NCBI GenBank assembly: GCA_019638395.1
Contig: JAHBTX010000004.1
Coordinates: forward strand, 124,001-188,000
Source: Cyclobacteriaceae bacterium
GTDB taxonomy: Bacteria > Bacteroidota > Bacteroidia > Cytophagales > Cyclobacteriaceae
Reading direction: 5' to 3'
DNA length: 64,000 nt
Made by a program: the position numbers and the translations under genes. Below the pieces are notes generated by a model. The model was not told the origin of the DNA. It was given only the letters and a program-made list of their open reading frames with translations, and did no database searches. Below are positions 46,818 through 50,522 of this stretch, one piece after another; within the stretch, counting starts at the first letter, position 1, and the number at the start of each line of letters is the position of its first letter.

Positions 46818-47723
46818 TTAAAGCTGTTGTTCACTTTTGGCCATCTCCCAACCTATAATGCTCTTTTTTCGAACACTTTCCCATCGGTATTCACCCAAAA
46901 TGCCATCCTTGCGAATTACCCGATGACAGGGGATGAGATACGCAATATGATTGGCACCCACAGCCGAACCCACCGCTTGCAATGCTTTTGGATTCCCGAT
47001 TTTGTTCGCGATGCTTTGGTAAGTAGTAACATGTCCGATTGGCAATCGCAGTAATGCTTCCCAAACTTTAATCTGGAAGTTGGTGCCTTTGATGAAGAGA
47101 TGAAGTCCCTCACCCCGACCTCGTTCCTCGGTCACCCCTCTTCCCGATACTCTATCGGGAGAGAGGAGTAGGGGTGAGGGAAAAATTTTAGCGACATACT
47201 CCTTTACCAACTCTTTATTCTCTCTGAAAACAGAATTATGCCAATACGTTTTCATTTCTTCCAGGCTTGCAAATACATCACCATCGGTCTGAATAAAAGA
47301 TAGCCAGCAAATACCCCGCTCGCTGATTCCGATTAGCGCAGTACCAAAATGTGTTTCGGTAAATCCATATTGAATGGTAATACCACCGCGCTGTTTGTAC
47401 TCTTGCGGTGTTACGGCTTCGAGTGTGGTAAACAAATCGTACACACGCGATTGACTGGATAACCCTGCGGCCTCGGCAGCTTCTACTACAGTTGTCGTTT
47501 CTTTTAATTTTGATTTTAGAAAGTCAACGGTTAAGTATTGTAAAAAACGTTTGGGACTAATACCCGCCCATTCGGTAAACAAACGTTGAAAATGAAATGG
47601 CGAAACGTGTACCTGTTCAGCAATTTCATCCAACTCTGGCTGATGTTGAAAATTTTTTTCGAGGTATTCGATGGCCTGCGCAATGCGCTGATAATTGAGT
47701 TCGGCTTGCGTTTGCATGATCAT
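46818..47723 (-). CDS. Ada-like protein: AraC domain plus methylguanine-DNA methyltransferase, with palindrome-encoded insert
   Basis: 301 residues. AraC-type helix-turn-helix region, residues 10-105 (IAEQVHVSPFHFQRLFTEW), then the alkyltransferase domain with RNAse-like lobe and active-site PCHRV in YLIPCHRVIRKDGILGEY; the cysteine accepts the alkyl group. It lacks the N-terminal Ada zinc domain. Residues around 184-209 (SPLLLSPDRVSGRGVTEERG) are encoded by the palindromic element 47107-47180 and have no counterpart in the family. The frame is preserved through the insert. Confidence 0.92.
   Translation of the reverse strand: MIMQTQAELNYQRIAQAIEYLEKNFQHQPELDEIAEQVHVSPFHFQRLFTEWAGISPKRFLQYLTVDFLKSKLKETTTVVEAAEAAGLSSQSRVYDLFTTLEAVTPQEYKQRGGITIQYGFTETHFGTALIGISERGICWLSFIQTDGDVFASLEEMKTYWHNSVFRENKELVKEYVAKIFPSPLLLSPDRVSGRGVTEERGRGEGLHLFIKGTNFQIKVWEALLRLPIGHVTTYQSIANKIGNPKALQAVGSAVGANHIAYLIPCHRVIRKDGILGEYRWESVRKKSIIGWEMAKSEQQL
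47107..47180. repeat. 74-bp palindromic element inside Ada-like coding sequence
   Basis: Ends are CCCTCACCCC (47107-47116) and GGGGTGAGGG (47171-47180), a perfect 10-bp terminal pair. The centre is TCCCGATA-CTC-TATCGGGA (47142-47160), a variant of the palindrome in the tmRNA and tRNA relic. Flanking CCTCT/AGAGG-type pairs fill the stem. The element is in frame with no stop, and adds roughly 25 residues. Confidence 0.85.
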
Positions 47724-49753: not shown

Positions 49754-50356
49754 ATGGATAGGAGAGAAGCATTACAAAAAGCAAGTCTGATCTTAGGCTA
49801 TGCTATTACCGGCCCTACGTTAGCTGGAGTATTAAGTGGCTGCAAGGCTACACCCGAAGCAGGTTTTACACCGGCATTCTTTTCAAATGAACAAGGGGTG
49901 TTGATTGAAACGCTGGCAGAGATTATTATTCCAAAGACAGCTACACCCGGAGCGAAGGAAGCCGGAGTGCCCCAGTTTATGGATACGTTGATTGCGAATG
50001 TGTATTCAAAAGAACAACAAGAAAAATTTATTGCTGATCTGATTGCATTTGATGCGGATGCAAAAGCAACATTTGGAAATTCTTTTATTGAATGCGGTGC
50101 TGAAGAACAACTACAACATTTTGAGAAACATCATGCGCAAGCTATAAGCGATGCAACGGGTGGTGGCCCTACAGGCTGGTGGAATGCCGGCACCGGTAGC
50201 GATAAACCGTTTGTGCTAAAAATAAAAGAGTTGGTGCTGGCAGGTTATTTCACCAGCGAAGTTGGTGCAACACAAGCATTGCAATACAATCCCGTGCCCG
50301 GACCGTTTAGGGGCTGTGTTCCTTTGGCGGAAGTGGGTAAGGCGTGGGCGACTTAA
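49754..50356 (+). CDS. Gluconate 2-dehydrogenase subunit 3 family protein
   Basis: 200 residues. Tat-like N-terminus MDRREALQKASLILGYAITG, then a predominantly helical domain: LIETLAEIIIPKTATPGAKE, YSKEQQEKFIADLIAFDADA, and FTSEVGATQALQYNPVPG near the end. It partners the GMC flavoprotein encoded 4 bp upstream; the pair forms a periplasmic sugar dehydrogenase of unknown substrate. Confidence 0.92.
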   Translation: MDRREALQKASLILGYAITGPTLAGVLSGCKATPEAGFTPAFFSNEQGVLIETLAEIIIPKTATPGAKEAGVPQFMDTLIANVYSKEQQEKFIADLIAFDADAKATFGNSFIECGAEEQLQHFEKHHAQAISDATGGGPTGWWNAGTGSDKPFVLKIKELVLAGYFTSEVGATQALQYNPVPGPFRGCVPLAEVGKAWAT

Positions 50357-50402
50357 AAGATTGAGTTCTTTATTCATGTTACACATTTGATTCTGCGTAT
50401 TC

Positions 50403-50509
50403 CCTCACCCTAATAGAGCTAATCAAATGGCACGATTTATTTTGCCCTTCTCCCTAAGGAGAGGAGAACACAGTAACTGTGCTTACAAGTAAGCGATGCT
50501 GGGGTGAGG
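50403..50509. repeat. Palindromic element with CCTCACCC/GGGTGAGG ends
   Basis: CCTCACCC (50403-50410) pairs with GGGTGAGG (50502-50509). Inside are hairpins TTCTCC/GGAGA near 50449-50464, CACAG-TAA-CTGTG (50469-50481) and CTTAC-AA-GTAAG (50482-50493). The ends match those of the Ada-gene element. It lies between the convergent dehydrogenase subunit and MtgA genes. Confidence 0.75.
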
Positions 50510-50522
50510 CTTGTAACGCCAA

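Follow-up and report, generated by a model that had tools for sequence, protein, structure and literature searches.

How a palindrome of 74 bp comes to be read as part of a DNA repair protein is the question raised by the Ada-like gene in the 64,000-nucleotide stretch of DNA analysed here (the window). We consider it probable that the insert is a solo, i.e. nuclease-less, copy of a palindromic mobile family, the full form of which is a hairpin-bordered DUF559 nuclease gene. The first-pass annotation had noticed the palindrome; the association with DUF559, the nuclease cassettes in leuS and the insertions in opposite orientation are invisible from one window and were missed by it.

The Ada-like gene and its insert

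The locus comprises the following features (evidence in brackets):
46818 to 47723, minus strand: Ada-like gene of 301 aa, host of the insert (ORF list, Pfam, NCBIfam and genus orthologues)
47107 to 47180, minus strand: solo palindromic element of 74 bp, read in frame as PSPLLLSPDRVSGRGVTEERGRGEG (covariance match, frame and length)
47107 to 47116, plus strand: terminal arm CCCTCACCCC of the outer stem (sequence; ends of 57 copies)
47117 to 47133, plus strand: side arm B, GACC...GGTC (corresponds to helix 3 in the family model, where 3 of 4 pairs show two-sided changes)
47135 to 47168, plus strand: hairpin A, C-rich (helix 2 of the family model; folding)
47171 to 47180, plus strand: terminal arm GGGGTGAGGG of the outer stem (sequence)

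Pfam places an AraC-type HTH (PF12833, PF00165) and a methyltransferase domain (PF01035) in the predicted product; among the NCBIfam models TIGR00589 scores above its cut-off, and the Ada model PRK15435 covers residues 10-298 at a score below its cut-off. In the methyltransferase, the IPCHRV stretch is the same in all 22 aligned genus orthologues. As first described, the minus-strand gene reads through a strong palindrome at 47107-47180, and the arms CCCTCACCCC/GGGGTGAGGG and the centre TCCCGATA-CTC-TATCGGGA (47142-47160) have the letters claimed for them; there is no stop in the ORF (46818-47723, palindrome included), which stays open over its 301 aa, so that the insert causes neither a stop nor a loss of frame. 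The estimate of about 25 extra residues also holds, but their span had been given as 184-209 and the coordinates give 182-206.

The outer ends are the 10-bp arms of the palindrome, and the inner stem of hairpin A (TCCCGATA/TATCGGGA, 47142-47149 and 47153-47160) is longer than in other aligned copies. The minus strand of 47095-47192 folds at -27.5 kcal/mol, compared with a mean of -13.2 for shuffled sequences (z -6.0; 0 of 200 shuffles as good), and a covariance model built from 8 other family copies matches the window copy at 67.5 bits (E 2.3e-14). Elsewhere in the window, at 50402-50510 just after a gene ending at 50356, the letters CCCTCACCCT ... CCTTCTCCCTAAGGAGA ... GGGGTGAGG look like a decayed relative of the element; as a second window copy this stretch was missed by the covariance model, and no inverted repeat was detected there.

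Alignment with homologues, which the first-pass annotation had proposed as a check, revealed a short linker at the position of the insert in most of the 30 best genus orthologues. The element is present in the same orientation in the window genome (G000) and in G038, and in the opposite orientation in G029, while the linkers of G023, G008, G017 and G049 carry other inserts or apparently degraded ones. An assembly error, one of two refuting cases named beforehand, is unlikely because the G038 orthologue carries a related insert at the same place (L015). The other, a peptide that is kept while the DNA palindrome has changed, was not seen among these relatives, which have apparent degraded remnants or, in G029, a reversed copy encoding another peptide. 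Next to its side arm, the element of G038 (L015 1784-1866) also has another short palindrome-like segment, CCTGCCGGACAGGCAGG.

These alignments bear on the explanation that the insert contributes to the function of the Ada-like protein, its peptide being under selection, which we regard as highly improbable. It would fit with the frame being kept in several related species that have longer linkers; however, the peptide differs from relative to relative and in the reversed copy, and is absent from most of the 30 orthologues. Residues 185-204 of the insert have pLDDT values below 50 in the AlphaFold model, which speaks against the explanation as well but proves little because the model (mean 67.7) is weak in its C-terminal half, residues 254-301 also being below 50. 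A conserved functional peptide is thus unsupported, since the peptides of the relatives differ.

A dispersed three-helix repeat family and its copies in genes

A search with the pattern CCCTCACCCCN(30-60)GGGTGAGG gave matches in 9 of 58 genomes of this Cyclobacteriaceae-like genus, and none with the reversed control pattern. The family covariance model, which was built on 8 copies with the window copy left out, matches in 25 of the 58 genomes (E<=1e-3), with most matches in G026, G040, G038, G000 and G029. Across the phylum, matches at E<=1e-4 are present in 10 of 148 genomes: two of this genus, the sister genus (12 matches) and a further seven in which the best match reaches 52 bits. For the covariation analysis 57 copies were used (56 distinct, two from the sister genus). 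Two-sided changes were detected at 9 of 23 pairs and in all three helices, compared with a mean of 2.4 after shuffling (0 of 500 as many). The share of paired cells among the 57 copies is 96.2% vs 52-65% when the partners are slid, in an alignment that is fitted to the model and leans its way; for helix 1 it is 96.0% (56 distinct copies).

The element is a dispersed unit of 56-83 bp with fixed ends. No target-site duplication was definable at the flanks of the 57 copies; the flanks are AT-rich, often with AAT before and ATT after the element. Of 30 gcvP loci, 7 matched the search motif, and the linkers that lack the element have diverged too far for the joint to be located. In many copies CGTC is present at the arm B junction, internally and not as an unpaired end, and membership in the CGTC/GTAG-tagged REPs was rejected given that the ends of the element are paired.

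The context was examined for 64 copies scoring >=41 bits in this genus. Seventeen scored as lying within an ORF, of which 15 were retained, namely 12 solos in genes and three copies at hut-DUF559 fusions; L124 and L125 were excluded because an apparent signal peptide follows the element and the true start is probably downstream. The 12 solos are distributed over ada (3), uvrA (5), gcvP (2), hrpB (1) and a type ISP gene (1), so that the check for further host genes, also proposed at the outset, turned up the same family elsewhere. The hosts were identified by family models as UvrA (L109), GcvP (L117), HrpB (L119), type ISP (L059), HutG (L173) and HutF (L176), and the other UvrA cases came from a UvrA search. 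Most of the remaining copies are found between ORFs or run across an ORF end; many are <=5 bp away from an ORF boundary.

All 15 in-ORF copies, which represent about ten events, have a length of 2 mod 3 and are read in the PSP frame in either orientation; 16 of 40 others have this length (two of the 40 are sister-genus copies taken without context; Fisher p 3e-5), a result that is partly circular because a copy breaking an ORF would score outside. In 13 of the 15 the next frame is open as well, but no copy uses it. Both orientations of the element are found, in different genomes, in ada, uvrA and gcvP. As a separate observation, the UvrA gene of the window genome (L260, G000:C12:890611-892875) has a different C-rich palindrome in frame, NSSPLLRRGAGGEV, and similar ones are present in G010 and G036.

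A palindromic repeat in frame in unrelated genes, here in 12 solos and three hut-DUF559 fusions, is the behaviour of the Rickettsia palindromic elements (RPE; Ogata et al., via the review PMC10969869), which are in-frame palindromes of ~150 bp. RPE are larger, belong to another phylum and appear in the review's account with no mention of a nuclease partner (PMC10969869); they are set apart by description rather than by a comparison of sequences. The first-pass annotation was right about an in-frame palindrome that donates a peptide, and incomplete in that in-gene palindromes are on record far outside Rickettsia (PMC3733652). REPs tagged with GTAG/CGTC are reported inside genes across numerous species, often repair genes, uvrA and recB included (Di Nocera 2013, PMC3733652); in two Xanthomonas species recB is hit at about the same site, and the REPs are mostly located by gene 3' ends. 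Like the element here, these are short palindromes in frame inside genes, among them repair genes, but a tagged REP has an unpaired GTAG/CGTC on one short stem, whereas the element here has paired ends and three helices (PMC3733652). The proposed partners also differ, being a RAYT transposase for the GTAG repeats, none for the CGTC repeats (PMC3733652), and DUF559 here.

Hairpin-bordered DUF559 genes and a proposed origin of the solo copies

The ORFs beside several copies were DUF559-like by eye and were then assigned to PF04480 by family models. A search for the DUF559 family returned 63 matches, spread over 40 of the 58 genus genomes. Of these matches, 55 were used for the hairpin analysis (eight partial or weak ones were left out) with a perfect GC-rich stem of >=8 bp within 250 bp of the DUF559 locus as the criterion. 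Such a stem, mostly of CTCTCC type and in some cases of another, is present in 77 of 108 flanks and in 0 of 206 control windows farther off at the same loci. For the best 80 of 567 DUF559 loci in named genomes (Bacteroidota, Chloroflexota, Pseudomonadota, Thermodesulfobacteriota and others) the numbers are 93 of 151 flanks vs 12 of 282 controls. Flanks without such a hairpin thus amount to 31 of 108 in the genus and 58 of 151 in this wider set. In the literature under open licences, covered mostly at the level of listings, we found no published link between DUF559 and palindromic repeats.

The three-helix family itself goes with one DUF559 clade (support 92, not starred): the family model scores >=43 bits beside 9 of its 10 members, and weakly (25 bits) beside the tenth, with family copies clearly on both sides in L173 and L112. 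Moreover, the hairpin type follows the nuclease tree (8 changes vs a mean of 16.6 for shuffled labels, 0 of 200), the labels being set by eye and the tree having few columns and many open forks. Solos away from DUF559 genes are found in 6 of 10 genomes with the best-matching clade and in 9 of 48 without it (p 0.013, hand counts). G000, G038 and G040 have many solos without a DUF559 gene of that clade; the window genome has one DUF559 match (C21:572975), which belongs to another subclade and has a weak family match in its flank (34.5 bits). Among individual loci, one DUF559 copy with an internal TAG (L159, G033:C10) still has hairpins on both sides. DUF559 also lies mid-way in long ORFs at seven loci of Bacteroidota, Chloroflexota and Pseudomonadota (L285, L287, L290, L292, L306, L308 and L334), and six of these have a stem of >=8 bp on at least one side.

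In leuS of this genus, DUF559 flanked by a hairpin on either side is read in frame between the NWIGKSVG and TTRPDTIFG stretches of LeuRS, and most of these cassettes start with CCTCACCCC on the left and close with GGGGTGAGG on the right, as the solos do. IleRS and HsdM have single DUF559 cassettes with a hairpin of >=8 bp on one side only (ileS, hsdM). A LeuRS match is present in 50 of the 58 genomes; the 30 best matches to a cassette-bearing query were taken, four loci off the motif were left out, and the 26 readable sites comprise 17 with a cassette, eight empty ones and one with a solo hairpin with similar ends (G056, L239), a cassette share that is inflated because the sites come from the best matches to such a query. 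Presence of the cassette requires at least six changes on well-supported (starred) LeuRS branches and is no less scattered than shuffled labels, and the distances of DUF559 and LeuRS agree poorly (Mantel r 0.11, equalled or exceeded in 175 of 2000 permutations). The distribution test therefore gave a homing-endonuclease-like pattern at leuS, i.e. one site, patchy and off the host tree. Pfam, on which the check for splicing domains relied, returned none for one LeuRS with a cassette, an IleRS and an HsdM. In sum, leucyl-tRNA synthetase carries a nuclease cassette within its reading frame, no intein domain having been detected by Pfam, and the cassette has been gained or lost several times.

Other arrangements were seen in LeuRS. 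The empty sites L236, L238, L241 and L243 have in-frame repeats of the AATTC type, rich in A/T (e.g. CAAAATTCGAAATTCAAAATT), which may be a further small repeat family of this loop. The DUF559 cassette of L191 (G020:C506) seems to be located at another LeuRS position than in the remaining genomes. Judged by eye, L319 and L347 suggest LeuRS cassettes in other families of Bacteroidota, and L342 one elsewhere in LeuRS.

The DUF559 proteins have 12 invariant residues in 51 sequences, and the AlphaFold model has a mean pLDDT of 84. Its sole structural match under E 0.001 is 3hrl, a putative Neisseria endonuclease (E 4.6e-9), followed by 3r3p, the catalytic domain of I-Bth0305I (E 1.9e-3, TM 0.78 by target length), and, weakly, 1vsr (Vsr, E 0.44). 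The modelled fold thus resembles those of I-Bth0305I and, to a lesser degree, Vsr. I-Bth0305I belongs to an intron, whereas the nuclease here is in frame with its host protein and neither an intron nor an intein came to light.

Our preferred reading of the Ada insert as a solo copy can be put as a mechanism. The full form would be a DUF559 gene bordered by the same C-rich hairpins with CCTCACCCC/GGGGTGAGG ends, the hairpins marking the ends of the element. DUF559, as a fold relative of I-Bth0305I, most likely cuts or nicks DNA, and repair would then copy the element into new sites. Solos may arise through recombination between the two hairpins with loss of the nuclease, a direction from cassette to solo that rests on one case because only one leuS solo was found, or by movement in trans. 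Within genes, neither solo nor cassette would persist unless its reading frame fits that of the host, the survivors being in-frame events in loops. The palindrome supplies a PSP...GRGEG-type linker at a place where the linker is variable, so that the host protein could still work. Such a process would allow selfish DNA to extend proteins, in this case a DNA repair protein, by peptide segments and entire domains. Against DUF559 as the mover stand the solo-rich genomes without the best-matching nuclease, the weak family match at the DUF559 gene of the window genome, and the lack of a visible target duplication.

The first of these points also agrees with a different explanation, that the palindromes belong to a REP/MITE-like family of their own, which moves through another enzyme such as a RAYT or through replication errors at hairpins, and that DUF559 settles beside them because it cuts them; the Ada insert would then be unrelated to DUF559 movement. 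We find this rather unlikely. In its favour, the fold of DUF559 is that of a homing endonuclease, and the window genome has three matches to PF01797 (Y1_Tnp, RAYT-like); however, the 3.3-kb loci of these three matches are without the element words searched for, i.e. in the window genome the repeats were not found to flank a Y1_Tnp gene, and RAYT as the mobiliser is unsupported. Moreover, the eight empty leuS sites are without such a hairpin, only 1 of 26 sites having a solo as a possible landing pad, and the agreement of nuclease tree and hairpin type argues against independent families. REPtron/RAYT-REP systems likewise pair the gene of a DNA-cutting enzyme with flanking palindromes of which dispersed copies exist, with PF01797 as the enzyme family there and PF04480 here (PMC3733652).

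The hairpin core, triplex motifs and ycjD of E. coli K-12

The C-rich hairpin core corresponds to a published motif, the 'intrastrand triplex' TM/TMECO (Holder 2015, PMC4666352). Read against Table 1 of that paper, copies of the family have its layout, a CCCTCTCCC hairpin followed within ~2 nt by GGGGTGAGGG, so that one strand of the element reads CCCTCTCCC-loop-GGGAGAGGG-NN-GGGGTGAGGG; the window copy has a variant stem in this layout, as judged from its sequence alone. The unit here goes beyond TM in having an extra paired end and the side arm, in occurring in genes and in bordering DUF559. In K-12, TM is described as always intergenic, as unassociated with transposons, phages and plasmids, and as showing no correlation with the genes on either side, and neither ycjD nor nucleases are named in the main text (PMC4666352). 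What is new is therefore the DUF559 nuclease partner, in-gene palindromes and the hairpin core having been published already (PMC3733652, PMC4666352). In many bacteria such a homing-endonuclease-like gene is bordered by related repeats, in some cases in frame within essential proteins, which suggests an undescribed kind of mobile DNA that is tolerated by proteins.

Since the triplex motif is tied to instability in E. coli (PMC4666352), the hairpins might instead be terminators or triplex motifs that cause instability, with insertions in genes as by-products of replication errors and DUF559 as a Vsr-like repair nuclease near unstable DNA. Many copies do lie 0-5 bp from an ORF boundary, and a Caulobacter DUF559 protein is reported to be Vsr-like and is blamed for the DNA damage response in a mutant (PMC12907096). 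This explanation is nevertheless improbable, as it leaves unexplained the in-frame leuS cassettes with hairpins at both ends, the dispersed units of 56-83 bp with fixed ends, and the two orientations at one site.

As a tentative generalisation of the preferred reading, which we regard as quite possible, DUF559 with C-rich hairpins may constitute a pan-bacterial class of mobile DNA that enters conserved proteins in frame and without splicing, being tolerated there as cassette or solo; the widespread bacterial CCCTCTCCC/GGGTGAGGG repeats, including the 23 triplex motifs of K-12, would then be solo remnants and YcjD the K-12 enzyme. The DUF559 association offers, for a common bacterial repeat whose origin is left open in the literature covered, both a candidate for the enzyme and a full-length form, with E. 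coli K-12 as a testable case. YcjD is a known PD-(D/E)XK member, placed near Vsr (PMC1189080). Its gene is a DUF559 gene between fabI and sapF, and triplex motif number 9 of Holder et al. (PMC4666352) is located 167 bp from it; by a rough estimate, the chance of one gene being so near one of 18 loci is 0.3%. A second, similar hairpin, which was not found in the table of PMC4666352, overlaps the 3' end of ycjD. A clean empty ycjD site was not found in E. coli: the two ycjD-less strains examined carry another operon there, which has been published (PMC12817139); the ycjD region is at least 80% present in 3334 of 5426 E. coli genomes.
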